A stretch of 42,700 bases of DNA from a virus: IMG/VR virus record IMGVR_UViG_3300033388_002348, positions 1-42,700 of that record. One strand, 5' to 3'. The notes under the pieces are model-generated. The model did not search any database, was not told the origin of the DNA, and saw nothing but the letters and a program-made list of their open reading frames with translations. The position numbers were made by a program, and so were the translations under genes. Shown in pieces: positions 6,274 through 42,700 of the stretch. Position 1 is the first letter of the stretch. The number at the start of each line of letters is the position of its first letter.

Positions 6274-6282
6274 GGTAGCCTC

Positions 6283-7289: not shown

Positions 7290-7299
7290 TTGGGTATGA
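7281..7299. promoter_or_regulatory. Second operator-like site, TGTTAC-N7-GTATGA
   Basis: An imperfect copy of the site at 7188-7206 with the same 6-7-6 layout; the right half matches four of six bases. It covers the -10 and the start codon of the regulator, consistent with autoregulation. Confidence 0.45.
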
Positions 7300-13077: not shown

Positions 13078-13518
13078 ATGAAAGTATTTTTAGGTGGCAC
13101 TTGTAATGAATCAACATGGAGAAATCAAATTATACCAATGCTAAACATTGAATATTTTAATCCGGTTGTCGATGATTGGACCGAAGATTGTATGGAACGA
13201 GAAGTTAAAGAACGTGAAAACGCTGATTTTTGCCTATTCACAATTACTCCAAGGATGACAGGTGTTTATTCGATAGCTGAAGTTGTAGATGATTCGAACA
13301 AACGACCAGATAAAACGATTCTGGTTATATTAAGAGATGATAAAGAGCTTCGATTTGATGATGCTCAATGGAAATCCCTGGGTGCAGTTGCAAGAATGGT
13401 TCGGCTGAACGGGGGAAATGTTTTTGATAATTTAAAAGCCGCTGCTGTTTTTATGAATGGGATTTGGAAAATGGGAGGATTAAACCATGAAGACAATACT
13501 AAAAACAATACATTTTGA
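13078..13518 (+). CDS. Nucleoside 2-deoxyribosyltransferase-like protein
   Basis: 146 aa. MKVFLGGTCNESTWRNQI, YFNPVVDDW, ADFCLFTITPRMTGVYSIAEVVDDSNKRPDKT and DDAQWKSLGAVARMV match a small deoxyribosyltransferase-like Rossmann family common in phages; the Glu in SIAEV is the likely catalytic residue. The family exchanges or hydrolyses bases on deoxynucleosides, and related folds act on NAD-type substrates, so roles in nucleotide salvage or in neutralising a host defence signal are both possible. It follows the helicase gene by one base, consistent with a replication-time function. The last 32 bases overlap the next gene. Confidence 0.75.
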   Translation: MKVFLGGTCNESTWRNQIIPMLNIEYFNPVVDDWTEDCMEREVKERENADFCLFTITPRMTGVYSIAEVVDDSNKRPDKTILVILRDDKELRFDDAQWKSLGAVARMVRLNGGNVFDNLKAAAVFMNGIWKMGGLNHEDNTKNNTF

Positions 13519-16357: not shown

Positions 16358-16573
16358 ATGAAGGATATAATAAAAAATATATCGGGAATAGAAGAGTTAT
16401 CAACGGATACCACATTTGATGAATTGGGTTTTGATTCTTTAGACTTGGCTGAGACTATGATGCAAGCCGAGGATAAGTTCGGGATACAGATCCCAGATGA
16501 TGGCATTGAAGAAATAGACACGGTTCAGGATGCGATTGATTTGGTTGAATCGCTTAGAAAGGAGGGGATATGA
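16358..16573 (+). CDS. Acyl carrier protein
   Basis: 71 aa. FDELGFDSLDLAETMMQAEDKFGIQIPDD contains the phosphopantetheine attachment Ser (S27 in DSLD), followed by the acidic helix II and a C-terminal helix (VQDAIDLVESLRKEG) as in bacterial AcpP. It is slightly shorter than AcpP (about 78 aa). The host holo-ACP synthase would load the cofactor. No other lipid gene is visible in the window, so it may serve host fatty acid or lipid A enzymes, or act as a decoy. The end overlaps the following membrane protein gene by four bases (ATGA). Confidence 0.88.
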   Translation: MKDIIKNISGIEELSTDTTFDELGFDSLDLAETMMQAEDKFGIQIPDDGIEEIDTVQDAIDLVESLRKEGI

Positions 16574-20213: not shown

Positions 20214-21929
20214 ATGGCTGAAGCACAACAAAAACCAACCAACTTTGAATATGCTCAACAAGTGTGTGAATATCTGCCCTCTACATCCTACAAACAAGCC
20301 CTTAAAATATACGATACAGTTTTAAACGATCCCAATCTTGACGACTACGTCACTGCCCAGATGGGATTACATGACCGCTTCTTCTTTCTCACAATGATAC
20401 TCAGAGCATCCTTTATATTTGAGACCAACAAGCCTGAGTGGATTTACGAACGGACCAGGGAAGTTGAAGTTGAACCAGACGGTTATCTCGATTTATGGGC
20501 GAGAGAACATTTCAAAAGTACTGTAATAACATTCGCGGGTTGTATACAGGAAATTGCAAAAGACTCTCCTATCTATCAGGATCTGAAAAGTGCAGATGCC
20601 TGGTTTAGAGGCCCAGGAAAAGAGATAACCATTGGAATCTTTGCGAATAAGAATCAAATTGCACGTGACTTTGTGTCTAAGATTAAGCGAGAGTGTGAAG
20701 ATAATGTGATGCTTCCAAGGCTTTACCCTACCGTATTCTGGGACAACCCAAAAAAACAAGCTCCAACATGGTCACGTGATGACGGCCTGATAATGAAAAG
20801 AACCAGCAACCCGAACGAATCTACTCTCTCAGGGTGGGGATTGGTTGATTCTTTACCAACATCAAAGCATTTTAAGCTCAGTGTGTACGATGACACAGTC
20901 ACAGAAAAGAGTGTCGGAACACCCGAGATGATCCTGAAGACCACAACAGCTTGGGAGTTATCTGACTACCTGTCTTCTCGTATTCATCCAGACATGGACC
21001 CCAGGAAGTGGCACATAGGCACTCGATACAACTACGCCGACACTTACGGTGTTATGATTAACCGAGGGTCAGTTAAGCCAAGAATATACGCAGCTACAGA
21101 AGACGGAACACCAGACGGAACACCTATATTTATTTCAGATTCACAATGGGAGCAGAAGAAAAGAGATGCTTCACCCTATACACTGGCATGTCAGATGCTC
21201 CAGAACCCAATTGCCGGGTCAGAACAGGAATTCAAACCAGAGTGGATAAGACGATACGAAGTCAGACCAGAGACCCTAAATATTGCAATCCTGGTTGATC
21301 CGGCTAATTCTAAGAAAAAAGGTACATCAAACACAGCATTTGCAGTGATCGGTAAGGACGCTCAACACAATAAGTATCTACTGGATGGAGCTTGTCACAA
21401 GATGGCATTACCCGAGAAATGGAAGATGCTGAAAGCTCTCAGGTCAAAATGGTTGCGTCAACCCGGTGTTCAGCTCGTCAAAGTAGGCTACGAAAAGTAC
21501 GGAATGCAAGCAGATATCGAGCATTATAAGGAAATGATGAAGATTGAGAAGGCACATTTCCCGATAGAAGAGGTATCATGGACCAGGGATGGGCTACAGT
21601 CCAAGGATGATCGTATCAGAAGACTGGTTGCAGATCATCATAACGCTAAGTTCTTCTACCCATATTCAGGAGATAAGACCTCTTTACAGATAAAGAAAGA
21701 GCACGAAGGCAAGCCGTATCTGATAGCCAAGCCAATCAAAAGAATCAACGAGAATGAAAGACTATACGATCTGGTAGAATGGTTTATGTCTAACGAGTAC
21801 CTGTTCTTTCCAGCAACCACAGCAAAAGACTTATTTGATGCAATTTCAAGGATTTACGATATCGATTTACCGGCACCAGTAGTTTATGGCGAGAATGATA
21901 TTTATCCGGAACATGAGGGGGATTATTGA
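20214..21929 (+). CDS. Terminase large subunit
   Basis: 571 aa. ATPase motifs: a divergent Walker A around LWAREHFKST (about 94-103) and Walker B KLSVYDD (about 221-227). The C-terminal RNase H-like nuclease has AILVDPA (catalytic Asp near 362), VGYEKYGMQADIE (Glu near 427) and a late Asp in KDLFDAIS. It drives DNA into the prohead through the portal and cuts concatemers. Order with TerS upstream and portal downstream is standard. The ribosome binding site is weak (GTAGAAAG). Confidence 0.93.
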   Translation: MAEAQQKPTNFEYAQQVCEYLPSTSYKQALKIYDTVLNDPNLDDYVTAQMGLHDRFFFLTMILRASFIFETNKPEWIYERTREVEVEPDGYLDLWAREHFKSTVITFAGCIQEIAKDSPIYQDLKSADAWFRGPGKEITIGIFANKNQIARDFVSKIKRECEDNVMLPRLYPTVFWDNPKKQAPTWSRDDGLIMKRTSNPNESTLSGWGLVDSLPTSKHFKLSVYDDTVTEKSVGTPEMILKTTTAWELSDYLSSRIHPDMDPRKWHIGTRYNYADTYGVMINRGSVKPRIYAATEDGTPDGTPIFISDSQWEQKKRDASPYTLACQMLQNPIAGSEQEFKPEWIRRYEVRPETLNIAILVDPANSKKKGTSNTAFAVIGKDAQHNKYLLDGACHKMALPEKWKMLKALRSKWLRQPGVQLVKVGYEKYGMQADIEHYKEMMKIEKAHFPIEEVSWTRDGLQSKDDRIRRLVADHHNAKFFYPYSGDKTSLQIKKEHEGKPYLIAKPIKRINENERLYDLVEWFMSNEYLFFPATTAKDLFDAISRIYDIDLPAPVVYGENDIYPEHEGDY

Positions 21930-23187: not shown

Positions 23188-23546
23188 GTGATCTTCTATT
23201 CACAGGTGTTGAAGGGCATGAATACGGAGACATGCAATTATGCGCCTGTATATGCGAGACGTTAGGCAGACACTACCCAGGGCATGTGTTTTCTGCATTC
23301 GTAGCCGATGAAGAAAAAATAGGTATGGTTATCATAACAATGCCAGAAGTTACAATGGATTACGGGTACTACCTGAAATTAAAAGACGTATACGCTGACC
23401 CTTCAATGAGGTGTATAATGAGGGCTGGTGGTGAAATGATCGAACGAGCAAAGATGCCACAGAAGAACAACGGTGAATTACCGGGGGCAGTGGATGGATT
23501 ATCTGACGCTGAATTATTAAAAGCAAGGGTTTCATTATGGGAATAG
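23184..23546 (+). CDS. Hypothetical protein upstream of portal, 120 aa
   Basis: Overlaps neighbours at both ends (ATGA at the start, 10 bases into the portal gene). GHEYGDMQLCACICETLGRHYPGHVFSAFVADEEKIGMVIITMPEVTMDYGYYLKLKDV looks like a small alpha/beta domain, and the helical end (DGLSDAELLKARVSLWE) may bind the portal or capsid. A head-assembly role is inferred from position. Confidence 0.6.
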   Translation: MSDLLFTGVEGHEYGDMQLCACICETLGRHYPGHVFSAFVADEEKIGMVIITMPEVTMDYGYYLKLKDVYADPSMRCIMRAGGEMIERAKMPQKNNGELPGAVDGLSDAELLKARVSLWE

Positions 23547-25450
23547 AAAGCGAAGGAAAAGATGAATGGTTGAGTAAGGCACAACACGCTTACGAGCAAT
23601 CAACGACATTTGTGGATGCTAATTACCGTTCGAAATGGGACGCCGGATTAAGTCATTTCCAGAGTAGACACGCAGCGGGTTCTAAATATCTAAAGTCAGC
23701 ATACAAATATAGGACTAAGATATTCAGACCTAAAACAAGGGCTACCATCCGAAATAATGAGGCTGCTGCTGTGGCTGCATTTTTTGGTAATGCTGACGTC
23801 GTCTCTGTAACACCACAGAACGAAGAAAACGACATTGAAAAAGCATCGGCGGACCTATACCACGAGGTTCTTAATTACCGTCTTACAAATACCATCCCTT
23901 GGTTTTTAACTTGTGTAGGTGGGTTCCAGGATGGCATGGTAATGGGTGTTATGGTCAGTCATCAATTTTGGGGCTATGAAGAAGACTCCGATGGTAATAT
24001 TCTAAAAGACGAACCCTGCATTGACCTGCTACCGATTGAAACGATTAGAATACATCCTGCTGCCGATTGGCGTGATCCTATAAACACAAGTCCTTATTTA
24101 ATTCGCTTAATACCGATGTATGTATCCGATATCAGAGCCAGGATGAAAACAAATGACCCAAAAACAAATGAACCAAAGTGGAAAACATTTACAGACGGGC
24201 AGATAAAATCAGCACAAAAAGAACTATCCGATCGGACCACACAAATCCGTGATAACGATCGTGAAGATAAATTCGATAAGACATCAGCAGTTATTCAAGA
24301 TTATGATGTTGTTTGGGTAAGACAGTATTTTATGAAAGACGGTCGGATTGATAAGATGTTTTATACGCTTGGTGGTGAATACAGGCTGTCTGATCCAGTT
24401 GACACGCGAGGATTATATCCAGGTGGTAAAAGACCTTTTGTGATGGGCGCGGTAATTTTAGAGACTCACAGAATTATGCCTTCATCATTGGCCGAGCTTG
24501 GTAGGCCCTTACAACAGGAATTAAACGAGAATGTATGCCAGAGGGGCGATAATATCAAGCTGGCTTTAAATAAAAGATTTATTGTGGCAAGAGGCTCAAA
24601 CCCTGATTTAAAAGCCCTCCTACGCAATGTGCCTGGGTCGGTTATTCAATCAGACAGTACCGAAGACATAAAACCTCTTGAAGTTCCCGATATTACAAGC
24701 TCAAGTTATGCTGAACAAGATCGGCATAATGTTGATTTTGATGAAATAACCGGTAACTTTTCACAGTCCACAGTGCAAACAAATAAAAATCTGAACGAAA
24801 CTGTTGGCGGGTTAAGCATGTTGAGAAGCGGTTCGAACGCTCTCACTGAATATTTGATCCGGATGTTTTCAGAAACATGGGTAGAGCCGGTCATTCAGCA
24901 GCTTTTAAAATTAGAACAAGCCTATGAGACAGACATGGTTATTCTAACCCTTGCATCCAAAAAAGCCGGTATAGCTTTAAAATACGGACAGAGCGAAATA
25001 ACAGACGAATTGTTGGATCAACAACTTACAGCAAAAGTTAATGTTGGTACATCAGCTACAGATCCATGGTTAGGGTTTGAAAGACTCATGGCCGCTGTGG
25101 GTGCCGTCACTAATCTTAGTCAACAGCAGTCTCAGCAACTCACAAAGGGTATTAATGTAAGAGAAATTCAAAAAGAAATTATGAGCGCAGTTGGAGATAA
25201 AAACGGGGATCGTTTCTTAGAGACAGAAGATCAGGAAATTCCACCTGAGATTGTACAGATGCAGCAGCAAATGGAACAGATGGGCCAAGCAATGCAGGAA
25301 ATGCAAGCGGCATTACAGGACGGAGAAGCTGATAGACAGAATAAGCTTGAAATACAGGCAATGAAAGAAAAGGGTCAGACAGGAAGAACAATTGCAGATA
25401 ATGAAACCGATTTACAGGTTGAACAAATTAAAATAGTGGGGAGACAATGA
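23537..25450 (+). CDS. Portal protein
   Basis: 637 aa. The order terminase, portal, scaffold, capsid supports it, as do portal-like features: FQSRHAAGSKYLKSAYKYRTKIFRPKTRATIRNNEAA near the start, YHEVLNYRLTNTIPWFLTCVGGFQDGMVMGVMVSHQFW in the middle, RPLQQELNENVCQRGDNIKLALNKRF, then a long Gln/Met-rich helical barrel end (EIVQMQQQMEQMGQAMQEMQ). It is somewhat shorter than the P22 portal (725 aa). It forms the dodecameric DNA channel at one head vertex and docks the terminase and the gp4-like adaptor. Confidence 0.9.
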   Translation: MGIESEGKDEWLSKAQHAYEQSTTFVDANYRSKWDAGLSHFQSRHAAGSKYLKSAYKYRTKIFRPKTRATIRNNEAAAVAAFFGNADVVSVTPQNEENDIEKASADLYHEVLNYRLTNTIPWFLTCVGGFQDGMVMGVMVSHQFWGYEEDSDGNILKDEPCIDLLPIETIRIHPAADWRDPINTSPYLIRLIPMYVSDIRARMKTNDPKTNEPKWKTFTDGQIKSAQKELSDRTTQIRDNDREDKFDKTSAVIQDYDVVWVRQYFMKDGRIDKMFYTLGGEYRLSDPVDTRGLYPGGKRPFVMGAVILETHRIMPSSLAELGRPLQQELNENVCQRGDNIKLALNKRFIVARGSNPDLKALLRNVPGSVIQSDSTEDIKPLEVPDITSSSYAEQDRHNVDFDEITGNFSQSTVQTNKNLNETVGGLSMLRSGSNALTEYLIRMFSETWVEPVIQQLLKLEQAYETDMVILTLASKKAGIALKYGQSEITDELLDQQLTAKVNVGTSATDPWLGFERLMAAVGAVTNLSQQQSQQLTKGINVREIQKEIMSAVGDKNGDRFLETEDQEIPPEIVQMQQQMEQMGQAMQEMQAALQDGEADRQNKLEIQAMKEKGQTGRTIADNETDLQVEQIKIVGRQ

Positions 25451-28878: not shown

Positions 28879-30423
28879 ATGACCTGGAATATAGATGATC
28901 CGCAGGGGGATGAATCAGCGAAGATAAAATATGAGATTGTGAAATACACTCGTGGCAAAGGTCTTGACCTTGGCTGTGGAATGAATAGGTGTTTCCCTCA
29001 TTTTATCGGAGTTGATAACGGGCATCATTTTGGAGAACAAACAGTTGCTCAGATCTTTTCTGACTGTAGCGACTTGAAAATATTTGGGTCCCAATCAATG
29101 GATTTTGTTTTCTCATCTCATCTGCTTGAGCATATTGAAAATTATAAAGCAGCCCTGAAGGAATGGTGGAGAGTTATTAAACCGGGTGGGCATTTGGTTG
29201 TTTATTTGCCTCATAAAGATTTTTATCCGAATATTGGGGAAGAAGGATCAAACACTGATCATAAGCACGACTTTTTACCGACCGATATTATAGAAGCTAT
29301 GAAAAAGTTTAAGGGCTGGGATCTTGTTAAAAATGAAGAACGAAATGAAGATTTTGAATATTCTTTCGTTCAGGTATTTAAAAAATGCGGAGATAGTCAT
29401 AAATACTCATACTCTGATATCCCCCACCCAAAGAAAGTCGCTGTGGTGCGATATGGTGGATTTGGAGACATGATTCAAGCTTCCTCTGTATTGCCATGGC
29501 TAAAAGATGAAGGATATCATATTACCTTTTATACAACTCCAACCGGGCATAATATTTTAAAGACCGATCCGCATATAGACGAATTTTTCATACAAGATAA
29601 AGACCAGGTACCTAATAAGGAATTAATTCCATTTTGGGAAGTTCAGAGAGAGCACTATGACAGGTGGATTAATTTAAGTGAATCGGTTGAAGGAAGTTTG
29701 CTTGCTTTACCAGGAAGACCAAAGCATTTATGGCCTAAAAAACTAAAGAGAAAGATGCTTGATCATAATTACCTGGATTTCACTCATTGGGTTGCTGATG
29801 TTCCATTACCGAACAGGCAGAAGTTTTATCCAACTAATGAAGAGCACAAGTGGGCCGAAAGTAAAATTAAAGATTATGGTCCGGGGAAAAACATCCTTTG
29901 GGTCCTGGCAGGGTCGGCATTCCATAAAACATGGCCCCATCTTGACGAAATGATTGCCAGAATTTTGACAAATGACCAGGATACGAAAGTCATTTTGTGT
30001 GGTGATAGTAGCTGCAAGGTACTCGAACAGGGCTGGGAAGAAGAGCCAAGAGTGATTTGTAAAAGCGGGGAATGGTCAATCAGGGAAACATTAACAATCG
30101 GTGCCTATATGGATTTAGTGATAGGCCCGGAAACAGGCGTTTTAAATACACTTGGAAAGCTCATGGTCCCAAAGATTTTATTTCTATCACACAGTTCAGC
30201 AGACCAGATTTCAAGATATTGGGTAAATACGTACAATATGGAGCCAAAAACAGACTGTTACCCCTGTCATCTGTTACATTACGGACAGGATCATTGCATT
30301 GAAGCTCTTTTAGAAGATGGCACACCTTCGGGGGTCGCTCAATGCCAATACGATATATCATGTGATGAAGTTGAAAAAGCGGTCTTTGAAGTGTTAAATA
30401 CTAAAAAACTTTTAGCAGCATAG
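28879..30423 (+). CDS. Fusion of SAM methyltransferase and GT9-type glycosyltransferase
   Basis: 514 aa. N-terminal class I methyltransferase: GLDLGCGMNRCFP (about 28-40), SMDFVFSSHLLEHI (73-86), WRVIKPGGHLVVYLPH. The C-terminal half begins KKVAVVRYGGFGDMIQASSVLPWLK (about 186-210) and has WVLAGSAFHKTWPHL and DLVIGPETGVLNTLGKL, typical of ADP-heptose:LPS heptosyltransferase-like GT9 enzymes, with a Cys-rich end (CYPCHLLHYGQDHC). Neither domain has a membrane anchor. It lies inside the structural gene block, between decoration and head-completion genes. Possible substrates are host LPS sugars (receptor change) or a virion protein; unproven. Confidence 0.82.
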   Translation: MTWNIDDPQGDESAKIKYEIVKYTRGKGLDLGCGMNRCFPHFIGVDNGHHFGEQTVAQIFSDCSDLKIFGSQSMDFVFSSHLLEHIENYKAALKEWWRVIKPGGHLVVYLPHKDFYPNIGEEGSNTDHKHDFLPTDIIEAMKKFKGWDLVKNEERNEDFEYSFVQVFKKCGDSHKYSYSDIPHPKKVAVVRYGGFGDMIQASSVLPWLKDEGYHITFYTTPTGHNILKTDPHIDEFFIQDKDQVPNKELIPFWEVQREHYDRWINLSESVEGSLLALPGRPKHLWPKKLKRKMLDHNYLDFTHWVADVPLPNRQKFYPTNEEHKWAESKIKDYGPGKNILWVLAGSAFHKTWPHLDEMIARILTNDQDTKVILCGDSSCKVLEQGWEEEPRVICKSGEWSIRETLTIGAYMDLVIGPETGVLNTLGKLMVPKILFLSHSSADQISRYWVNTYNMEPKTDCYPCHLLHYGQDHCIEALLEDGTPSGVAQCQYDISCDEVEKAVFEVLNTKKLLAA

Positions 30424-30430: not shown

Positions 30431-31144
30431 ATGGCCACATCAGGATCAACAGATTTCACGGTAAATAGAGATGAAATAATAAAAGATGCAATGGGCGTAC
30501 TTGGGGTTCTGGCAGAAGGGGAATCACCAAAACCAGCAGAAATGGTAAAATCCTCACGAGCTTTAAATATGATGGTAAAGCAGTTGATGGGGCAACCGAA
30601 CTTTATTGCAAGGGGTTTGAAGATGTGGACCCGTGGCAGGGCTTCTTTGACCTTGGCAGCACAAAATAGTTTTGATTTACAACCAAGTGGCGGGGATTTG
30701 GATATTGCAATACCAGTAAATATAATTTCTGCTAATATTAAAAATACAAATGATATTGAAAGACCGCTTTTTCAAATGACCCTGGAAGAGTACGAAGCGA
30801 TTTCTAATAAAACTGCGGTGTCATCCCCCACCAAGTGTTATTATGAGCGTGGATTATCTTCCGGGGTTTTATATTTAGATGCAGTCCCTTCAGACACTAC
30901 AGATACTATTGAGCTTGTGTACAGGAGGATTTTAGAGGACTTTGATACCGCAGCAGACAATCCGGATTTTCCGCAGGAATGGTACGAGCCTTTAATGTGG
31001 AATCTTGCCTTAAAAATTGCTCCTTTTTTTGGGGTTTCTCCATCTCAAAATGTCGTGGCACAAGCACAAACGACATTGGCGATAGCGAACACAATTGAAC
31101 CAGAACGCACAACAATGTATTTTCAACCGGGATTAGACTATTGA
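30431..31144 (+). CDS. P22 gp4-like head completion / tail accessory protein
   Basis: 237 aa. FTVNRDEIIKDAMGVLGVLAEGE ... NMMVKQLMGQ ... GLKMWTRGRASLTLA and NPDFPQEWYEPLMWNLALKIAPFFGV are shared with P22 gp4-type proteins, which bind under the portal, seal the DNA-filled head and carry the tail. P22 gp4 also has a muralytic activity; no catalytic residues can be confirmed here. The next gene, gp10-like, starts inside its stop codon. Confidence 0.82.
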   Translation: MATSGSTDFTVNRDEIIKDAMGVLGVLAEGESPKPAEMVKSSRALNMMVKQLMGQPNFIARGLKMWTRGRASLTLAAQNSFDLQPSGGDLDIAIPVNIISANIKNTNDIERPLFQMTLEEYEAISNKTAVSSPTKCYYERGLSSGVLYLDAVPSDTTDTIELVYRRILEDFDTAADNPDFPQEWYEPLMWNLALKIAPFFGVSPSQNVVAQAQTTLAIANTIEPERTTMYFQPGLDY

Positions 31145-32562
31145 AGATTAATTTTGTTGGAGGGGCTTACACCTCACGTAGCACAAACTTAAATGACCAA
31201 ATGCTTCAAAACGCATATCCGGTACTGGATAACGACGGTGGGTCACAGGTCATAGCTTTATATGGGACCCCTGGATTGAAAGAGCTTCTTGATTTAAACA
31301 ACCTATCAGAGGCCAGGGGTGTTATTGTTTTTGATAATTACCTGTATGTTGTGTGCGGAAAGAATGTTTATAAAGTTGATATTTATTGGAATTCTACGAC
31401 TTTAACAGGCGTGCTCCGTACCGATTCTGGGAAGGTTTATATAGAGAAAAATAACACGCAGATCCTTATAGTTGATAGAAAGTTTGGATATTATTACGAG
31501 CCTTATGTGGTAGATGTTGAAGGTGAAGACAACATTAAAGGTATTGAAGACTTGGATGTAATACAACCAACGACAGCAACATATCAGGACGGGTATGGAG
31601 TTGTTACGGCGTATAATTCAGAATCAATATGGATATCCGGATTGGATGATTTTTCAAGCTGGAACATACTTGATTTCACATCTGCTGAAGGTTTTCCAGA
31701 CTTAGCTTACAGGGTTTTGTCTGACCATAGGGAGGTTTGGGTATTTGGAGGTGAAACAACAGAGGTGCTCTATAATTCAGGAAACCCCGAATTCCCGATT
31801 GAACGAGTACCGGGTGGATATATAGAAAAAGGAATAAAAGCCCCGGCATCAGCGGCGAAGGTAGACAATTCAGTATTCTGGTTAGACAACAACTCTCAGG
31901 TCTTACGAGCAGATGGATATAGACCCCGGGTAATATCTACAAGGCAAATTGAGTATCAAATGGCCCAAATGAAAGACAAGTTTGACGCAAGGGCTTATAC
32001 ATACATACAAGAGGGACATACTTTTTATGAACTCTTTTTCCCATCCGATGGTAAAAAATTTGTTTATGATGCATCGACAAATTTCTGGCACACAAGGGCA
32101 TCAGGCAACAACGACAAAAGGCATCGTGGTAATTGCTACGCTCTGTTTAATAATAAAAGAGTTGTCGGGGATTTCGAGAATGGTAAGCTTTATGAGTATG
32201 ATTTAAACACTTATCAGGACAATGGGGAGGCACGAAGGTTTATTCGAAGGGCGCAAGTTGTTCATGCTGATCGGGTTAGAATCGTTCATAATAAATTAGA
32301 ATTAGAATTCGAGTCCGGGACGGGGTTAACGACCGGACAAGGAAGCGACCCACAGGCGATGTTAAGATGGTCAGATGACGGAGGCCACACATGGTCAAAT
32401 GAAAAATGGGCTGATATAGGCCAGATTGGTGAATATAGACATAGAGTAATTTGGCGAAGACTTGGACAAAGCAGAAATAGGATATACGAAGTCGTGATTT
32501 CTGATCCTGTTAAAGTTGTGATAATAAGTGCTATTTTAGATGCTGTACCGGGTACCAGTTAA
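31141..32562 (+). CDS. P22 gp10-like packaged DNA stabilisation (tail hub) protein, TTG start
   Basis: 473 aa, similar in length to P22 gp10 (472 aa). The start is TTG at 31141, overlapping the previous stop (TTGA); no ATG fits and the N-terminus MKINFVGGAYTSRSTNLNDQ matches the family. Repeated beta-propeller-like strands (LYVVCGKNVYKVD; GGETTEVLYNSGNPEFPIERVPGGYIEKGIKAPASAAKVDNSVFWLD; WSDDGGHTWSNEKW). It forms a ring below the gp4 ring and keeps DNA in the head; the tailspikes or fibers attach near it. Confidence 0.88.
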   Translation: MKINFVGGAYTSRSTNLNDQMLQNAYPVLDNDGGSQVIALYGTPGLKELLDLNNLSEARGVIVFDNYLYVVCGKNVYKVDIYWNSTTLTGVLRTDSGKVYIEKNNTQILIVDRKFGYYYEPYVVDVEGEDNIKGIEDLDVIQPTTATYQDGYGVVTAYNSESIWISGLDDFSSWNILDFTSAEGFPDLAYRVLSDHREVWVFGGETTEVLYNSGNPEFPIERVPGGYIEKGIKAPASAAKVDNSVFWLDNNSQVLRADGYRPRVISTRQIEYQMAQMKDKFDARAYTYIQEGHTFYELFFPSDGKKFVYDASTNFWHTRASGNNDKRHRGNCYALFNNKRVVGDFENGKLYEYDLNTYQDNGEARRFIRRAQVVHADRVRIVHNKLELEFESGTGLTTGQGSDPQAMLRWSDDGGHTWSNEKWADIGQIGEYRHRVIWRRLGQSRNRIYEVVISDPVKVVIISAILDAVPGTS

Positions 32563-34042: not shown

Positions 34043-34506
34043 GATGTTCAATAAAAGACATAGAAGCGGTACACAATATTTTAAGTGATGAAATGATTTA
34101 TCCACACATTATTGACGATGGGTGTGGTGATGATTTGAAATATAAAATGGCAAGATTATTGTTGGAAAATCCAGCAGTTTATTGTTTAATGCCAAACCAG
34201 TACACATTGTTTATATTTTTTCAACTTAATTACGTTCTTTATGAAGGGCATATGCAAGTTTTAAAAAATGGCCGTGGTAGGGAGGCCGTAAAAGCTGGTA
34301 AGGATTCTTTGAAGTGGATGTTTAAAAACACACCATGTGAGAAAATAATAGGTTTTACACCTGATTATTGTAAAGAAGCGGTAATGCTTGCTATTAAGGC
34401 GGGTATGAAAAGAGAGGGTATTTTAACAAAAAGTTGGAAAAAAGACGGCATATTATACGATCAAATAATCACGGGGGTGAATAAGGGAGATGTGTCATGG
34501 CAGTAG
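34039..34506 (+). CDS. P22 gp14-like (DUF2824, GNAT-fold) head-assembly protein
   Basis: 155 aa. SIKDIEAVHNILSDEMIYPHIIDDGC, LFIFFQLNYVLYEGHMQVLKNGRGREAVKAGKDSLKWMFKNTPCEKIIGFTP and AIKAGMKREGILTKSW follow the acetyltransferase-like pattern of the DUF2824 family that includes P22 gp14. Position between the fiber and gp7-like genes is the P22 position. In P22 it is needed for production of infectious particles; an enzyme role has not been shown. The acetyl-CoA loop is not clearly present. Confidence 0.7.
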   Translation: MRCSIKDIEAVHNILSDEMIYPHIIDDGCGDDLKYKMARLLLENPAVYCLMPNQYTLFIFFQLNYVLYEGHMQVLKNGRGREAVKAGKDSLKWMFKNTPCEKIIGFTPDYCKEAVMLAIKAGMKREGILTKSWKKDGILYDQIITGVNKGDVSWQ

Positions 34507-35303
34507 GCGCAGCAATAGCGGGAGCGGCTTCATCAATTGGAGAACCGATAACACAGTATGAAACCACACGAAGAGCAGCAAGCGAGGCAAAAGACGCAGC
34601 ACAGGCGCAACTAGCAGCAGATGCAGCGGCAAGGCGTGAGTCGATCGCAGCACAACGAGAAATGTTTGATCTTGCTCAAGGTGAGGAAAGAAGAAGGTTT
34701 GACCTTAATAGGGCAGATCTTGCACCGTGGAGAAAGGCCGGTGGTAGGTCCATTAAAGAGCTTGAGAGAAGAGCCTTTAAAGGTCCTGGAGAGTTTGACC
34801 CCTCAAAAGATCCTGGCTTTGAGTTCGGATTTAAAAATCTTGTAGAAAGGCCGTTGGAGCGTGGAGCTTCTGCAAGAGGAAGAAGACGATCCGGAGCTAC
34901 AAAAATTGCACTAGGAGACAGAGCGCAAGACTATGCATCAACTAAATTTGATAGTTTTTTAGCTCGTCATTACAATAGCTTAACACCTTTTCAATCTCTT
35001 GCTGGGCTGGGACAAACACCGCAAGGAAGACCGAACCAAGTCGGGGCCGCTGTATCGGCTGGGCAGGGAATCGGACAAACGATAACAGGTGGAAGTGCTG
35101 CGAGAGGGTCAGCATTAAATCAACTAGGTGCCGCAAATGCCGCCGGCGCAAATGCTGCGGGTACTGCGTTCGGGAATGTATCAAATACAGCATCAAATGC
35201 TTTACTTGATTATTCAGCATGGCGATTTAATCAGGACCAACAGAATCAAGGTGGTGGATTTAATTATCCAGCATGGAGAGAAAACGAGCAACGGCAAAAC
35301 TAA
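34497..35303 (+). CDS. P22 gp7-like DNA ejection protein
   Basis: 268 aa. The start MAVGAAIAGAASSIGEPITQYETT, a long Ala/Arg-rich helix (EAKDAAQAQLAADAAARRESIAAQREMFDLAQGEERRRFDL), PGFEFGFKNLVERPLERGASARGRRRSGA and an Ala/Gly/Asn-rich tail resemble gp7-type ejection proteins. It is packed in the head and released into the cell before the DNA. Overlaps the gp14-like gene by 10 bases. Confidence 0.78.
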   Translation: MAVGAAIAGAASSIGEPITQYETTRRAASEAKDAAQAQLAADAAARRESIAAQREMFDLAQGEERRRFDLNRADLAPWRKAGGRSIKELERRAFKGPGEFDPSKDPGFEFGFKNLVERPLERGASARGRRRSGATKIALGDRAQDYASTKFDSFLARHYNSLTPFQSLAGLGQTPQGRPNQVGAAVSAGQGIGQTITGGSAARGSALNQLGAANAAGANAAGTAFGNVSNTASNALLDYSAWRFNQDQQNQGGGFNYPAWRENEQRQN

Positions 35304-35312: not shown

Positions 35313-36089
35313 ATGGCAGATCTAAGGTTTTTAGATAGACTAGAACAGGCCCAAAGAATACAAGGAAGAACAGAGGATAGGAAGTTTTTAAGAGAGGACC
35401 GTGCGTCACAAGCGGCTGCACGACAAGCAGCTATTCCTACGGACGAAGAAAGGGCTGCGTCATTACAGCAACTACAGTTTAAAAACGAGAAGGAAGTATT
35501 TGATTATTTTGAAGAGTCTGCTCCCTTTGTTACATTTGACAACTATGCCGAATCAGCACAGCACTTTATTGAATTAGGGGCAAATCCGGCTATATTTCCG
35601 GAATCTTTTGAAACTGAGGAAGATTATGATAAGTGGAAATCGGATTCATTGGCATATATGGATAAACAAAAAGCCGCGATAAAAGAACCCGGGGAAACTG
35701 CGGACAGAGCCCTTGAAGAAAGACGTGTTAAGGTCAGTGAAAAAAGGCTGACACTTGATGAGAAAAAACTTGCCAATGACCTAAAGAAGGGTGGTTCAGG
35801 CGTAAAGAAAATGACAAAAGACGCTGCTCGTAAGGAATTTGTAAAAACAGCGCAATCTATTTCCAGGTTAAAAACTACGGGAAGCATTGATCCGTTAATG
35901 TTGGCTTTTTTGAGTGAAAAAAAACAAGAAGAATTACTTGATAAAGCAGACTCAAAAGAAGCTATAAGAGTGCTTGAACAGTATCAGGCTGTATTAAAGA
36001 AAGAACATGGGCTTGAGCTTGGAGATGAATCGGCGGTAGATACAGATGTATATAATTGGAGGGCTGACCTTCCACAGAATGTAAGATGA
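35313..36089 (+). CDS. P22 gp20-like DNA ejection protein
   Basis: 258 aa, charged and helical (RFLDRLEQAQRIQGRTEDRKFL; ETADRALEERRVKVSEKRLTLDEKKLANDLKKG). Second gene of the gp7-gp20-gp16 ejection set by position and composition; sequence conservation in this group is low, so the call rests on synteny. It may form part of the transient channel through the cell envelope. Confidence 0.65.
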   Translation: MADLRFLDRLEQAQRIQGRTEDRKFLREDRASQAAARQAAIPTDEERAASLQQLQFKNEKEVFDYFEESAPFVTFDNYAESAQHFIELGANPAIFPESFETEEDYDKWKSDSLAYMDKQKAAIKEPGETADRALEERRVKVSEKRLTLDEKKLANDLKKGGSGVKKMTKDAARKEFVKTAQSISRLKTTGSIDPLMLAFLSEKKQEELLDKADSKEAIRVLEQYQAVLKKEHGLELGDESAVDTDVYNWRADLPQNVR

Positions 36090-36135: not shown

Positions 36136-39100
36136 ATGCCACAAAAATTAGAAAACGACCCTGAGTTCAGAGCGTTACCTGATGGGGATAAAAAAATAGT
36201 TTATCTTAGCTTTTTTGATAAAAAGATTGCAGATGATGAATTTCGGTCACTTGATCCTCAGACACAGAATGCTGTTAAAGAGAATTATTTAAGCCGATAT
36301 AATCTATCTCTGCAAGAACCAGAACCAGAACCGGGTTTATTCCGAAGGGCTGGGGATGCCGCTTTGGGTGGCATTGATAAAGTTATTGAAGCAATCACCC
36401 CGGAAACTTTATCAGATGAGCTTTCAGACGACCTTCAGGACTCCAAGGTTGAACGATCTGCTAAAATAGACGACTCTATAAGTGACAAGTTGTTTGTTGC
36501 TCATGAACAGCAAATCCCGGAGCCAGAAAAAGGGTTTTTCGGTAAAAGGATACAAGTCGCCAAGAATGTAGGAACTCAAGCAGCCTTGGGCATTAAAGAT
36601 TTAGTTACTTCTGGGCTTGCCGAAGTAGAAGGTTTATCTGAGAACGATTTAAATTCAAAAGCGAAAGAAATAATAGACACATTTGAGTCTGAAAAAACTA
36701 TATCAGAAGAACCAACAGCCGCCATGATAAATAGGCCGATTGGTTTTAAACCACAGCTTGCTATGTTGGAGGTCGCAAAACTAAGTGACGACCAAAAAAA
36801 GATGTTAGCTAATCCGAATATTACAAAGGAAGAAAAACAGAAAGCAATATTAAACTATTTAAAGGAAAATCAAGCTTCTTCAGTACAAAATTATAAAAAA
36901 GTTATATCCAAATTCCCAAAAGAACCTGACAAGGAATTTGAAGGTGGTTTCCTTGGATTTATGGAAGATGTTACAACAACTCTTCCAAGATCAGCCGCAA
37001 GTATGGCTGCTACTGCCGTGAATGTACCATTAGGGGCAAATTTAATATATAGACAAACGCTTGGGTCAGCGTACCAAAAGCACATTGATAAAGGCATTGC
37101 GCCAGATGTGGCAAAGGATGCGGCAAATTTAGAATCAATAATATCCACTCCCTTAGAAACTTTTGGCAATATTTTCGGTTTAAAATTAATCAAAGGTGCT
37201 GCCGGGGCTATGATTGCAAAAACAGGGCTTGGAAAAAAGGCCACCGCATTAATCAGCAGGATATTATTATCATCTGCCGGCGGTGGGGCTGAAGAATATT
37301 TGCAAGCTCATTCTGAAGCTCTTGGAGATATTTACGCAGAAGATCCCGAAGCGTCTGCGGATGAAATGTTTGAGAAGTTTAAAGAAAAGGTCAGTACATC
37401 TGAATTTCAAAAAGGCGCTGGAAGGCAATTTGCTGTTGGTGCAGTGGCAGAAGGGTTGTTCCCATTGGCAGGGGCGGCTTTTTCTCAACAACAGGCACAA
37501 AAAGCAGGGCTTCCCGTTCCTCAAGAAACCGTTAAAGAAACCATTGAAGAGCCTAAAGAAGCGGCACCAGTTCAAGCAGAGCCTATCCAAGAGGCTCAAC
37601 CTGAAGTTACAGAAGCACCGCCGGTCACTGAGCAAATAGTCGAGCAAGAAGAAACTCCGGCAGAGGCACCACAAAAAGCCCAAGAAATAAATTTAAAGCT
37701 TGAAAAGAACCGTGCCGATATAAAAGCTATAAACAAAAAGAAAGTCTCTGATATGACGGAGAACGAAAAAGACATCGCCCTACATAGAAGCCAGATTACA
37801 GGTCTTAAAAATAGAAGGGCATACAATGAGGGTGCGAACGAAAGGAAAAAGCATCAATTTTTTGTTGACGCTAATTCTTTGAAATGGTTTAATGATAATA
37901 TAAGTCATGAAGCTGGAAACAAATTGCTTGAGTCAATCGGCGACTCAATACTCACAACAGAAATTGCAGATAGTGCTTATCATAGTTCAGGAGATGAATT
38001 TATAGTTGAGGGGGATGACCTTCAATTTGTAAACAACGAGTTAAAAAAAGCCAACGATTGGCTATTAACTAACCCTCTTCAGTTTGAAATGGAAGATGGG
38101 TCAAAGGTATCAATACCAGCGAGGTTTGAATATGGCACAGGAAAAACTCTTGAAGAAGCAGACAAAGATCTTATCAGGGCAAAAACTGAAGCTGAAACTC
38201 TTGGGATTAGGTCAGCAAGGGGCAAAACCCCTGCCGGTTTTACTGTCAGAGATGAAGCCAAAGGCGATTTGGATCAAAGGGGAGAGGTTCAAGCTGAAAT
38301 AACGAAGCCCACCGGACAGAAAGAGGATGTTCGTACCGGTGTACGGGAAAAAGAAAAAGTAACGTCAGCATTAAGATTAATGTTGGAAGAATCCGAGGGG
38401 AGTCAAACAAAATCTTCTTTCGTTGATGAAAGCGGGAAAAGGCAGTTTGTAAAAGCGTCCACTCCAAACTGGATGAAAGAAATTAACGAGGTCGCCAAAC
38501 TAAATAAAGATAGATTTTTTTCACGTTCTGAAATTAAAACCCTTCTTAATAAAGAGATATCTGGGCAACTCCTAACCCAAAAACAACAAAACAGATTTTT
38601 ATATTTGTCTGAGGCTGCTACAAAAATAAGTAAAACAGATCCAGACATAGTAAGCCAGCAAGATGCCGATTTATTAGAAAAGGAAGGATTTAAAATAATT
38701 GGCAAGAAAGAAACTGCTGGAGATTTGAACGCCGGCGACAAATTTTTCGGAACGGTTGACGGTGAAAAAGATACATACACTGTTAAAAAAATAGACAAAG
38801 ACGGAACTGTACATTTAATTAATGGGGTAAAAAAAGAACTTGATATATTTGACCAGGTTGATATTGTCGGAATAAAAAAGGCAAAAAAAGCCACCCCACA
38901 AACTGCATTTGCAGCCATTGGTAAAGCTCCGCAAAAAGCCGAAGGTAGACCAAGCGAGCTTAAAAAGCCACAATTAAAACCGTTAATTACGACATCTCAG
39001 AAGAAAAATATCCAGAAGAAAAAAGAGATAAAGAAAAAACAACTTGATATCACATCGGCAAAAGAGGCCAGAGAAGGCATCCAAACTATGATCAGAGACA

Positions 39101-41829
39101 GGCGGCATAGTCTGAATCTTGCATCTTACGAAACAAATCTTTTTATAAATGAGATTGAGCAGTCAACCACCAAGGCACAGCGGGAAGCTTTGCCGTTTAT
39201 TATTGAAAAAACAGGCGTTCCAAAAGAACTGAAACGACCTGATATAGAAAAAGCATATGATAAAAACAAAGAACATCTTAATGAAATAGCTTCACAGGTC
39301 CGAACACATTTTAATAAAAGCTGGCAGAAGATGAAAGAACACATTCCGGATATGTCAGCACAAGAAATTGAAAACTATGTAACCCATATATGGGATATCC
39401 CCCGAAGCAAACAACAAGAAGTTACAAACTGGTTTACAACCCGGAATCGATTCTTAAAGAAACGATACATAGAAACACTTGAAAAGGGTATAACCGAATT
39501 AGGTTTAAAGCCTAAAGTCCTGGATATCAGTGAAATAATAAGAGTTCATGATGCTGTCACAAACAAAGCGATCGAAAACGCTAAATTTGTTGAAGATCTA
39601 AAAGGGCTTAAAAAAGATGGCGTTTCTCTTATGGAACGATCTGATAAAGCCCCTCAAGATTGGGTTATGATCGACCATCCAGCACTAAGAAAAGGACTTG
39701 TTATTCCTGGTGATATCAAGACCGGTGAAAAGATTTCTCCACAACTTCAAGACATATTGACCGAGATGGGTGTAGCAATAGGCCGTAGAATATCACCAAA
39801 GGCTTTTGGTAAGGCAACCACAAAACTTGGTGAGTACCGAAGGGGAGAGCAGCCAGAAGTTAGATTTCAAAGGTTTATGGAGAATAAGACGATTGCCCAT
39901 GAAATCGGTCATCATATCGATACTGTTCTTAATCTTGGTGACCAATTTTTACAAAAACATAAAACAGAACTTTACGAATTAAATAAAAAAAGAATTAAAG
40001 ACTTCCCAGGAAAAGAAAGATATACAGAATCTACCGAGGAACAAATTGCGGAAGCATTTGCCTATCTATTCACAAATCCGGAACAAATGCAGAAAGTAGC
40101 ACCTACCTTGATGGCCGATCTATTAAATAGATTAAAAGAGGATGGCACACTATCAAAGCTTGTGGATTTTGATTTTGAGAGAAATGCGAAAAACTTAATT
40201 GAAGAGCAACTTAATACATTGGTCCAACTACCTGTTAAGGTTCATCCTGATTTAGCCAAACCTTTAAAGGTTGTGTTCGAAAGCAGATTTGACCATCCGG
40301 CAATAAAAGCGTTTGAAAATATATCAGGCGTTTTGAAAAAGACAAGCCTTAGTATATCTTTATTTCACCATATGGCACTTGGCGAAACAGGTGTGGCTAC
40401 AATCGGACTCCCACGGATAGCAAATATTTATCTTAACCCGGTAAAAATATATAACGCCTTGGTCAGGAATCAATTTGATGTATATAAAAATGAGCCACTT
40501 GCAAGGGACGCAATATCACACGGTGTACAGCTTGGAGCTACTTCTGATATACCTGTTCAAAAGATTCAAAAATTTCTGAATGATTTTGCATCTAAGACAA
40601 AAAATATTGTAGTTGTGAATAGAGCTACAAAACTTCTCAGTACGTTCAATGCAAAATGGGATTCAGCTTTATGGGACTATCTGCATGATACCCTTAAATT
40701 ATACGCCTTTGAATCATTAAGCAGCAAGATTGACCCGAAACTCGATCAGAAAAAAGCCAAGCAAGAAGTAGCTCAATTGGTCAATGACACATTCGGTGGG
40801 CAGAATTGGGATACATTAATGGTCAGCCCAAAGACCCAACAGGTTATGTCTTGGATGCTGTTAAGCCCTGATTGGACGATTTCAACCTTAAGACAGGCTT
40901 TGGCACCCACTGGTATAGGTTCAATATATAAAGAAACTGCTGGCGTTAGGCGGCGTGCTGGGGTGATGTTTTGGCTAAAGGCTGGGTTATATTTTGGAGT
41001 GGGTATTAATTTACTAAATATGGCCTTTAGGAGAGATGATGAGGAAGAAAATCCAGAGTTCTATAAAAGCAAGAAAAAAGGTAAGCTTGAACAAACTATG
41101 ATCGGGAATGCATTGGGCCATCAATCACATTTATTTGCCGGAAGGTATGAGGACGGAAGAGAACGATATATTAGATGGGGAAAACAGTTCAGGGAGCTAC
41201 CGGAGATGTTTTTTGAAGATGTTGGTTTTAGTCCGATCAGTGCGTCATTAAAAAAGATTGGTGGTAAGATGAATCCATTATTACAAATTACATCACAGAT
41301 AGCAACCGGGCATACATTATCAGGGTTTAAAAATGACGATGTTTACGGAAAAAAAGGATGGGATAAAACTTTCGGTATATTTAAAACTCTTTTAAAATCA
41401 CCGCTTCCGTTTAGTTCGAGGACGTTACTTTCCGAGCGGGCTGAATTTCATATAAGCGATATAGCACTCCCAAGCTCAAAGGGAATGAGCAGATATAAAA
41501 GCGTTGAGTTATTTAAAACAGCTATTATAAAACAGGATGAACAATTATTGCAGGAAGTCTATCAGGATACACTTGAAAACAATCTACCAGCGTATACTTT
41601 ATTTACGGCTGCATTGACATCATTAAAAGCTGAAGAATCGAGAGACTTCAACAGAGATTTAAAGGTAATAGAAGATATACAGAAAAGACTTCCGCTTTCC
41701 GATATTAAAGAAGCTGAAAGAGTTCAGAGAAAAATGAAACGGATGGCAAGGGAAGAGGTTGACAAGAAAGCTGGAATTAAACTACTAGAAACAGCGATTG
41801 AAGAATCGAAACAATATCAGGAGGAATAA
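36136..41829 (+). CDS. Giant ejection protein (gp16-position) with GGDEF-like and HExxH metallopeptidase domains
   Basis: 1,897 aa. It begins with EFRALPDGDKKIVYLSFFDKKIADDEFRSL, common in phage ejection proteins. Two hydrophobic/Gly-Ala stretches (around 280-300 and 340-380) may insert into membranes. Residues about 545-700 form a GGDEF-like domain: ITGLKNRRAYNE, VDANSLKWFNDNISHEAGNKLLESI, YHSSGDEFIVEG (SGDEF in place of GGDEF). Around 1253 AHEIGHHID is a zincin HExxH motif, with EEQIAEAFAYLF near 1300 supplying the third ligand. A membrane segment (WLKAGLYFGVGINLLNMAF) lies near 1615. The order and position equal P22 gene 16, but the size and enzyme domains recall polyvalent phage proteins injected with DNA. 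Confidence 0.8.
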   Translation: MPQKLENDPEFRALPDGDKKIVYLSFFDKKIADDEFRSLDPQTQNAVKENYLSRYNLSLQEPEPEPGLFRRAGDAALGGIDKVIEAITPETLSDELSDDLQDSKVERSAKIDDSISDKLFVAHEQQIPEPEKGFFGKRIQVAKNVGTQAALGIKDLVTSGLAEVEGLSENDLNSKAKEIIDTFESEKTISEEPTAAMINRPIGFKPQLAMLEVAKLSDDQKKMLANPNITKEEKQKAILNYLKENQASSVQNYKKVISKFPKEPDKEFEGGFLGFMEDVTTTLPRSAASMAATAVNVPLGANLIYRQTLGSAYQKHIDKGIAPDVAKDAANLESIISTPLETFGNIFGLKLIKGAAGAMIAKTGLGKKATALISRILLSSAGGGAEEYLQAHSEALGDIYAEDPEASADEMFEKFKEKVSTSEFQKGAGRQFAVGAVAEGLFPLAGAAFSQQQAQKAGLPVPQETVKETIEEPKEAAPVQAEPIQEAQPEVTEAPPVTEQIVEQEETPAEAPQKAQEINLKLEKNRADIKAINKKKVSDMTENEKDIALHRSQITGLKNRRAYNEGANERKKHQFFVDANSLKWFNDNISHEAGNKLLESIGDSILTTEIADSAYHSSGDEFIVEGDDLQFVNNELKKANDWLLTNPLQFEMEDGSKVSIPARFEYGTGKTLEEADKDLIRAKTEAETLGIRSARGKTPAGFTVRDEAKGDLDQRGEVQAEITKPTGQKEDVRTGVREKEKVTSALRLMLEESEGSQTKSSFVDESGKRQFVKASTPNWMKEINEVAKLNKDRFFSRSEIKTLLNKEISGQLLTQKQQNRFLYLSEAATKISKTDPDIVSQQDADLLEKEGFKIIGKKETAGDLNAGDKFFGTVDGEKDTYTVKKIDKDGTVHLINGVKKELDIFDQVDIVGIKKAKKATPQTAFAAIGKAPQKAEGRPSELKKPQLKPLITTSQKKNIQKKKEIKKKQLDITSAKEAREGIQTMIRDRRHSLNLASYETNLFINEIEQSTTKAQREALPFIIEKTGVPKELKRPDIEKAYDKNKEHLNEIASQVRTHFNKSWQKMKEHIPDMSAQEIENYVTHIWDIPRSKQQEVTNWFTTRNRFLKKRYIETLEKGITELGLKPKVLDISEIIRVHDAVTNKAIENAKFVEDLKGLKKDGVSLMERSDKAPQDWVMIDHPALRKGLVIPGDIKTGEKISPQLQDILTEMGVAIGRRISPKAFGKATTKLGEYRRGEQPEVRFQRFMENKTIAHEIGHHIDTVLNLGDQFLQKHKTELYELNKKRIKDFPGKERYTESTEEQIAEAFAYLFTNPEQMQKVAPTLMADLLNRLKEDGTLSKLVDFDFERNAKNLIEEQLNTLVQLPVKVHPDLAKPLKVVFESRFDHPAIKAFENISGVLKKTSLSISLFHHMALGETGVATIGLPRIANIYLNPVKIYNALVRNQFDVYKNEPLARDAISHGVQLGATSDIPVQKIQKFLNDFASKTKNIVVVNRATKLLSTFNAKWDSALWDYLHDTLKLYAFESLSSKIDPKLDQKKAKQEVAQLVNDTFGGQNWDTLMVSPKTQQVMSWMLLSPDWTISTLRQALAPTGIGSIYKETAGVRRRAGVMFWLKAGLYFGVGINLLNMAFRRDDEEENPEFYKSKKKGKLEQTMIGNALGHQSHLFAGRYEDGRERYIRWGKQFRELPEMFFEDVGFSPISASLKKIGGKMNPLLQITSQIATGHTLSGFKNDDVYGKKGWDKTFGIFKTLLKSPLPFSSRTLLSERAEFHISDIALPSSKGMSRYKSVELFKTAIIKQDEQLLQEVYQDTLENNLPAYTLFTAALTSLKAEESRDFNRDLKVIEDIQKRLPLSDIKEAERVQRKMKRMAREEVDKKAGIKLLETAIEESKQYQEE

Positions 41830-42700
41830 TGGCACAGATATTTAATTACCCGAAATTTCAAGCATTTTATACAAGCGGTGCTTCAATCGGTTTACCTTTG
41901 GTTGGTGGACAGCTTTACTTTTATGAAGAAGGTACAGCCACACCGAAGGATACTTTTCCCACAAGGGCTGATGCCGATGCCGGAACGAATGCAAATGCAA
42001 ACCCGGTTATATTAGATGCGAACGGTGAAGCAACTATTTGGCTATCAAATGACGGTCTGTACAAGGTTGTGTTGGATGACGCATTAGATGTTAACCAGTG
42101 GTCTGAAGATAACATTGGTAATGAATCCATTGATACAAAGATGGTGTTTTTAAGTGATTACGCTGACTTTGATACAGCAATAACCGATATCGACACATCA
42201 GAAACAACTTTATTTTTAGACACCACAGATACGGTATCGGCCAATGTAGCTGTCCCGTTAAATGTCGAAACAAGGTTCTTGGAATCTGGCCAATTGTCGA
42301 TTTCCGGGGGCTTTACAATTACATTTACGGGACCAATAACGGGTATTCCTGATTTTGTTGGGTCGGGTGACTTGGCAATAAATGGTGATTTACAGGCGGG
42401 TAATTATCAAATCTTTGGATCAAGCTTGACCGTAACCTTCGGTATTGAAGCTGTAAAAACAACTATGTTTTTTAATCCGATATGGTGGGATGCAGATGCC
42501 TCAGATGGAACAGATAAATATACATTGCTTCAGGCGGTTATGGACTCACTGCCTGTTGATGATTTTGGCGGGACACCGGACGGAATAAACAGAGGTATGA
42601 TTATTATACCTCCTGGAATGGCTTATGATTCTGGTGTTAATTCGGCACCATTACAGCAAAATTTAAAATGGAATCAATCAATTCTTGATATGTCCGGGCT
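41829..42700 (+). CDS. Tail fiber / tailspike protein, N-terminal part (continues at position 1)
   Basis: The ATG at 41829 overlaps the stop of the giant ejection gene (TAATG), after AGGAGG. The frame is open to the window end and continues through the repeat into 1-1207, giving 654 aa. The N-terminus FQAFYTSGASIGLPLVGGQLYFYEEGTATPKDT ... NPVILDANGEATIWLSNDGLYKVVL is the widespread virion-attachment module of short-tailed phage fibers. The expected role is adsorption; as last gene of the late operon it matches the P22 tailspike position. Confidence 0.85.
   Translation, partial: MAQIFNYPKFQAFYTSGASIGLPLVGGQLYFYEEGTATPKDTFPTRADADAGTNANANPVILDANGEATIWLSNDGLYKVVLDDALDVNQWSEDNIGNESIDTKMVFLSDYADFDTAITDIDTSETTLFLDTTDTVSANVAVPLNVETRFLESGQLSISGGFTITFTGPITGIPDFVGSGDLAINGDLQAGNYQIFGSSLTVTFGIEAVKTTMFFNPIWWDADASDGTDKYTLLQAVMDSLPVDDFGGTPDGINRGMIIIPPGMAYDSGVNSAPLQQNLKWNQSILDMSG
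42587..42700. repeat. Direct terminal repeat, right copy
   Basis: Exact copy of 1-114; see the left copy. Overlap of a circular assembly. Confidence 0.93.

Follow-up and report, generated by a model that had tools for sequence, protein, structure and literature searches.

A GGDEF domain and a zincin joined in a giant protein at the gp16 position of a P22-like podovirus

Among the late virion genes of the window (the whole stretch of viral DNA analysed, 42,700 nucleotides), a single open reading frame encodes a giant protein of 1,897 residues in which two unrelated enzyme domains, a GGDEF domain and a zincin, are found in one chain. The likeliest account, for which belief and doubt are about evenly weighted, is that of an ejected polyvalent protein standing in the place of gp16, whose zincin would free a cyclic-dinucleotide synthase in the new host. 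Beyond gene position and fold, we infer every step, the activity of the giant, its product and its presence in the virion included.

Gene order and position of the giant protein

An exact direct repeat of 114 bp lies at both ends of the record (window 1-114 and 42587-42700), so the genome, of about 42.6 kb, is probably complete and circular. Its genes are arranged as in a P22-like podovirus, with the large terminase subunit (TerL), portal protein, head closure protein Hc3, a gp7-like protein, a 258-aa ORF and the giant in succession, the scaffold and coat genes being assigned by position alone. The genes used for this assignment are as follows.

20214..21929, + strand: terminase large subunit (phrog_38, E=2.2e-29)
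23537..25450, + strand: portal protein (phrog_1216, E=7.5e-26)
31141..32562, + strand: head closure Hc3, P22 gp10-like (phrog_578, E=2.4e-115)
34497..35303, + strand: P22 gp7-like DNA ejection protein (phrog_598, E=1.2e-13)
35313..36089, + strand: 258-aa ORF at the gp20 position, without a family match
36136..41829, + strand: giant polyvalent protein, 1,897 aa, at the P22 gene-16 position (open frame, gene order)
41829..42698, continuing across the terminal repeat into 2-1207, + strand: next gene start, tail fibre-like by position

Elsewhere on the plus strand, the window encodes a nucleoside 2-deoxyribosyltransferase-like product (13078-13518; Pfam E=2.5e-11), a 71-aa acyl-carrier-protein-like phage gene product with a GFDSLD motif (16358-16573; Pfam PP-binding E=1.7e-12) and, amid the head genes, a 514-aa protein (28879-30423) with an N-terminal methyltransferase domain (E=8e-11) and a C-terminal half that is glycosyltransferase-like by eye and matched by no tool.

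Relatives of the window were sought through several of its proteins. Searches of viral contigs with the portal protein and with the whole giant returned 56 and 7 pattern matches, respectively, none of which was confirmed as a relative. A gp7-like gene is present in 45 of the best 80 Hc3 relatives and, where the contig continues, it is followed by two ORFs of ejection-protein size, mostly of 410-630 and 540-890 aa. In this set of 80, plus-strand ORFs of at least 800 aa do not exceed 888 aa, and none of the 80 carries an ORF of the GGDEF clade described below, only 39 of them reaching at least 8 kb past the start of Hc3. The giant is taken to occupy the place of gp16 (about 609 aa in P22), because the gp7-like gene and the 258-aa ORF precede it and the second ORF at this place in the relatives is gp16-sized. 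The gene order in the window and its relatives thus bears out the P22 gene 16 position claimed by a first-pass annotation of the sequence. P22 itself is described as injecting about 12 copies of gp16 (PMC8402733).

The same arrangement is met among the 60 viral contigs that carry the GGDEF clade, four of which (L020, L028, L030 and L045) have an Hc3 relative upstream of GGDEF, with a gp7-like gene as well in three of the four. In L020, L028 and L030, Hc3, the gp7-like gene and an ORF of about 320 aa are followed by a GGDEF protein of 2,024, 968 and 1,796 aa, respectively. Two Vibrio phages, VvAW1 and 41E34.2, also encode a giant (3,640 and 2,668 aa, respectively) following this series of genes; both giants have a related zincin, and neither shows a GGDEF domain by profile.

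Within the giant, the following regions were distinguished.

36991..37485, + strand: N-terminal region, residues 286-450, with three hydrophobic segments (hydropathy)
37486..37635, + strand: linker, residues 451-500, P/E/Q = 54% (composition)
37726..38262, + strand: GGDEF domain, residues 531-709 (clade profile, AlphaFold, Foldseek/VIA-align)
37867..37920, + strand: active-site stretch D578..N586..N595, comprising the metal Asp, the base-contacting Asn and the base-reading Asp changed to Asn (clade alignment)
37987..38001, + strand: SGDEF motif, residues 618-622 (clade alignment)
39790..40158, + strand: zincin domain, residues 1219-1341 (BLASTP to VvAW1; Pfam ATLF below cut-off; VIA-align on a middling model)
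39898..39912, + strand: HEIGH zinc motif, residues 1255-1259
40039..40041, + strand: E1302, likely third zinc ligand, invariant in 6/6 (six-row alignment)
40960..41016, + strand: C-terminal hydrophobic segment, residues 1609-1627 (hydropathy)

Residues 298-437 resemble a 1,974-aa protein of the virus vir555 (tblastn, 31% identity, E=3e-8). Residues 1344-1897 matched no family in Pfam or PHROGs, and the last 522 residues had no match in the phage collection at E up to 10; an LPD38 domain had been suspected in this C-terminal part and was not found. No SNF2, methylase, ART or LPD match was obtained for the giant in Pfam, and no gp16 family match in Pfam or PHROGs; the absence of a gp16-family or LPD match counts against the reading of the giant as an ejected polyvalent protein.

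The GGDEF domain and its phage clade

The motifs quoted in the first-pass annotation are present in the giant as D578-A-N-S-L-K-W-F-N586-D, S590-H-E-A-G-N595 and S618-G-D-E-F622 for the GGDEF domain and H1255-E-I-G-H-H for the zincin. Pfam GGDEF (PF00990) matches residues 553-624 with E=4e-4; its 20.6 bits fall short of the curated cut-off (23.8 bits), which is exceeded by the clade members L007, L028 and L037. The clade profile, which includes the window domain itself, covers residues 531-709 with 185.7 bits, and with a profile built from 35 clade members solved diguanylate cyclases are matched at E=4e-14 (PleD, 4e-11). A tblastn search of the phage collection returned 48 records: 47 are small GGDEF genes from YuA-like siphophages of Pseudomonas and Bordetella (E down to 4e-17; 34-37% identity), the only close relatives there, and the remaining record matches the N-terminal region of the giant. 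A plasmid search with the window GGDEF domain returned cellular-type diguanylate cyclases with weak E-values. An AlphaFold model of residues 521-716, built with a 35-row alignment, has a mean pLDDT of 94.3; VIA-align superimposes it on DgcB with Z 15.3 (2.2 A over 142 residues) and on PleD with Z 14.2, and Foldseek matches it to a Thermotoga GGDEF domain (E=5.5e-9). Residues 531-709 are therefore predicted to form a real GGDEF fold. The first-pass annotation had proposed such a prediction, naming a structure devoid of a nucleotide pocket as an outcome that would count against its reading of the protein; the predicted fold has an active site of the nucleotide-pocket type.

A five-row alignment of the domain led to the 60 viral contigs, which were fetched by two motif patterns. 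A tree was built by a quick method from 124 domains, comprising 54 phage rows (the window included, copies at 80% dropped) and 70 rows from bacterial genome contigs, for which only segments that were 130 residues or longer, or scored highly, were taken. One branch (SH-aLRT 95) holds 53 phage rows and eight bacterial-bin rows to the exclusion of other cellular rows. The eight score at least 135 bits with the clade profile, as compared with at most 91 for the other bacterial rows, and are likely to be prophage or phage contigs. L061 and the Pseudoflavonifractor row L158 fall outside the branch, on long branches. Within the branch, the window, whose own end branch is long (0.79), is nearest to L028 (support 83), where the series of genes is likewise P22-like. 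By this tree, the window GGDEF domain belongs to a single phage clade apart from cellular diguanylate cyclases.

The clade occurs in two forms, as small stand-alone genes in YuA-like siphophages and, elsewhere, as a module within giant polyvalent proteins. Of the 60 loci, 53 have the domain in an ORF of at least 600 aa, 27 of these ORFs having both ends within the contig (665-3,421 aa), and the other seven have it in a small ORF of 158-298 aa. Pfam was run on 52 giants, that is the window protein and those of 51 of the 53 giant loci (L011 and L018 were omitted as repeats of others), and GGDEF was matched in 52/52 at E up to 0.01. Polyvalent-type domains in these 52 giants include InPase (11), LPD22 (9), RadC (6), LPD38 (5) and ART-PolyVal (4), with single occurrences of Kinase-PolyVal, ddrB-ParB, LPD5 and LPD23. 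The inorganic pyrophosphatase (InPase, PF18823) found in one chain with GGDEF in 11/52 giants could remove the PPi of a cyclase; no InPase-GGDEF pairing is claimed, because near-copies are counted and no background rate stands behind the figure.

Some neighbourhoods deserve mention in their own right. In L061/L062, an ORF of about 1,400 aa with a related HEIGH zincin (2260-6465) is followed by a separate 188-aa GGDEF ORF (6920-7483), so that zincin and GGDEF are adjoining genes. In Pseudomonas phage MP1412 (L003, 7968-8929), the neighbour of the stand-alone GGDEF gene is annotated as the antirestriction gene KlcA. Bordetella phage LK3 belongs to a genus that carries a clade GGDEF, and its lysogens are described as over-producing biofilm, which is a correlation only (PMC8471281).

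Active-site counts were made on 58 non-redundant domains out of 65, copies at 90% identity or more having been dropped. D578, N586, G594 and each residue of G-D-E-F are invariant (58/58), D587 is kept in 57/58 and K583 in 54/58, and position 595 is Asp in 53, Asn in four and Thr in one. The first motif position is Ser (S618) in 53/58, making SGDEF the clade norm. In the last helix, K683 (57/58), R692 (57/57) and R695 (55/57) are retained, and K683 and R692 are what we take to be the kept functional Lys and Arg of GGDEF enzymes. Conservation is partly so by construction, because the contigs were fetched by one of the two motif patterns. GDEF is kept in 6/6 contigs fetched by the first pattern alone (first position Ser in four, Gly in two), while in those fetched by the GDEF pattern alone D578, N586, D587 and G594 are kept in 51/51, D595 in 48/51 and K583 in 46/51. 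These cross-pattern counts mostly set aside an artefact of motif fetching, and GDEF-less copies may be under-sampled, the other pattern occurring in only 9/60 loci. The inhibitory RxxD site was found in one of the 65 domains (L021) and is absent from the window copy.

The window copy deviates from its clade at several positions. It has N595 where the clade has Asp, as do L007, L027 and L039 (4/65 rows, placed in separate parts of the tree); N580, found otherwise only in L061/L062, where 56/58 have Asp (the two others being Asn); and E665 where 57/58 have Ser or Thr. It also has His for the Arg that stands before GGDEF in bacterial diguanylate cyclases and has a role there. In GacA, the residues described are the base-contacting Asn339 and Ser348 (the latter Asp in canonical enzymes), the Mg-holding Asp374 and the proposed general base Glu375 (PMC6456294). 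These align with N586, N595, D620 and E621 of the window, with the same nine-residue spacing in both (586/595 and 339/348), so that the window copy keeps all of these active-site residues but the canonical base-reading Asp. Since that Asp is N595, the window protein is not filed as a canonical diguanylate cyclase and, because of two Asp-to-Asn changes, one of them base-reading, synthesis of c-di-GMP is less sure for the window copy than for the clade. As to the first motif position, AGDEF and SGDEF are known as active variants of the signature GG(D/E)EF. Activity with SGDEF is described for ECA3270 of Pectobacterium and, in vivo, for MbaA (PMC3974145, PMC8079147), and activity of VCA0965 was lost after that position was changed to Ser (PMC3974145).

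N595, N580 and E665, together with the Pfam score below cut-off, count against a working synthase. It is possible, if on balance unlikely, that the window GGDEF has lost synthesis and instead binds GTP or c-di-GMP, or is a purely structural part of an ejection protein: D595N, D580N and S/T665E and the long end branch of the window copy point in this direction, and degenerate GGDEF domains are described as able to keep other roles (PMC3974145), whereas the domain retains the metal Asp, the Asn of the ND pair, GDEF and the last-helix Lys and Arg, and Ser in the first position is normal for the clade. An active cyclase with an altered base choice, in which Asn595 favours or admits ATP and leads to cGAMP or c-di-AMP, appears rather improbable. 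It would agree with the location of N595 at the position of the canonical Asp, which is Ser in the cGAMP-making Hypr enzymes (GacA, PMC6456294), with the shared nine-residue spacing from the base-contacting Asn and with the scatter of the Asn rows across the tree, but these rows are few, Asn could equally weaken binding, and a tested Asn enzyme of this kind was not found in the literature searched.

The zincin domain

Residues 1219-1341 are assigned to a zincin of LF/PPEP type by motif and kinship, the tie to PPEP/LF chains being a fold relation only. BLASTP with this region finds the giants of Vibrio phages VvAW1 (E=5e-6) and 41E34.2 (1e-4), and phmmer with the zincin domain alone reaches them at E of about 1e-4 to 1e-3. 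With the whole giant, phmmer found neither, and kinship with the Vibrio phage giants therefore rests on the zincin domain. In a six-row alignment, the Arg of an upstream E-x-R, the H-E-x-x-H residues and E1302 are all invariant, and H1255, H1259 and E1302 are the predicted zinc ligands; the separate HEIGHH zincin with a likely third ligand proposed in the first-pass annotation is upheld by these residues and by the fold comparison given below. An HExxH arises by chance in 3.9% of 2,000 shuffles of the giant; chance is nevertheless not taken as its origin, because of the upstream E-x-R strand, E1302 and the BLASTP match to the VvAW1 zincin. Pfam ATLF matches the domain with E=1e-5 and 25.7 bits, under the curated cut-off of 27.4. 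Among the clade giants, HExxH occurs in 32/53, against a mean of 2.5 and a maximum of 8 in 200 shuffles, a count that concerns the HExxH motif itself.

Modelling of this region, also suggested at first pass, gave a mixed outcome. PPEP/LF chains rank first in VIA-align, with PPEP-3 at Z 9.3 (3.2 A, 151 residues), somewhat above the level that VIA-align calls common, but the AlphaFold model, for which six rows were used, is of medium confidence (pLDDT 62, rising to about 80-90 near the motif helix), Foldseek returned nothing significant for it (best E 0.12), and a sequence search of the PDB with the zincin region returned no zincin. Cleavage of host proteins had been put forward as the task of this domain; self-processing of the polyprotein, which Iyer et al. 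2017 propose for this class of protease, is at least as likely.

Possible roles and comparison with known systems

Iyer et al. 2017 propose that phage polyvalent proteins are delivered, that their MPTases, which they linked to the LF fold, cut them into working units, and that their GGDEF domains supply or disturb nucleotide signals (PMC5512222). Combining these proposals with the ejection of P22 gp16 gives a scheme for the window giant. It would be packaged with the gp7-like and gp20-position proteins and leave the virion with the DNA, its hydrophobic parts (the three N-terminal segments and the one near residue 1609) helping it to reach or cross the inner membrane. The zincin would then cut the chain between domains, or host proteins, and the GGDEF domain, freed or as neighbouring copies in the ejected bundle, would pair up and make a cyclic dinucleotide, by default c-di-GMP from GTP, unchecked for want of a product-inhibition site. 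A burst of c-di-GMP at entry could render the host non-motile and alter its surface, for example with phage receptors changed or closed, before expression of any phage gene. It counts against this scheme that proteins, once ejected, may get no further than the periplasm or membrane, where GTP is absent.

The giant gene sits in the late virion gene series, as it would if the protein were made late and acted in the producing cell, or served as part of the conduit only, instead of being an early effector. We hold this to be improbable, since several phages have, in proteins at the ejection position, a catalytic domain whose active site is conserved, which accords better with delivery; Iyer et al. 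2017 argue likewise for phage polyvalent proteins encoded close to virion genes (PMC5512222). If the domain is injected and active, the phage would set the second-messenger level of its host by an enzyme brought along, independently of gene expression. The first-pass annotation had also raised interference with host cyclic-nucleotide defence, which is conceivable; an anti-CBASS or decoy role was considered, and the present results give no evidence for any of these. As a long shot, phages might share a private lineage of cyclic-dinucleotide synthases carried in the virion within giant ejection proteins, of which some copies, the window's included, would through the Asp-to-Asn change make a nucleotide other than c-di-GMP, reaching the cell before phage genes are read and competing with or flooding host nucleotide-signalling defences. 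The clade offers good test material: its members include stand-alone proteins of about 155 aa from YuA-like phages, embedded forms, and natural variation between Asp and Asn at the base-reading position.

The combination of GGDEF and a zincin-like MPTase in one phage polyvalent protein is already known from an Acetonema longum prophage (WP_004096050.1; PMC5512222), and the GGDEF gene of phage YuA has been noted in a review; in the literature searched, no phage GGDEF that had been tested or injected was found beyond the works cited here. What is new, as far as that literature goes, is that the phage domains form a single clade, which has kept its active site and normally reads SGDEF, together with the P22-gp16 position and the Asp-to-Asn variants. 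The window protein resembles the polyvalent proteins of Iyer et al. in that both GGDEF and zincin belong to one giant phage protein encoded close to virion genes, and its zincin agrees with their definition, which asks for an HExxH and, on the next conserved helix, a Glu (PMC5512222); it differs in its gp16 position and in its lack of SNF2, methylase, ART and LPD matches, LPD domains being present in its GGDEF-clade relatives. GGDEF is called 'not very widespread' in that work (PMC5512222), whereas 60 viral contigs carry it here. The YuA-like siphophages (Yuavirus, Vojvodinavirus) share the clade, SGDEF/AGDEF and the same GTG and ARG tail motifs, but theirs are small unfused genes near exonuclease and, in MP1412, antirestriction genes. 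The DarB-like giant of VvAW1 has the same gene position and a related zincin, but is far longer and devoid of GGDEF by profile. Compared with LF/PPEP-type zincins, the window domain shares HExxH and a Glu on a later helix, at only 14-20% identity. Finally, the window copy has the fold and most active-site residues of the bacterial diguanylate cyclases PleD, DgcB and WspR, from which it differs in the missing RxxD site, Ser for the first Gly, His for the Arg before GGDEF and Asn for the base-reading Asp.
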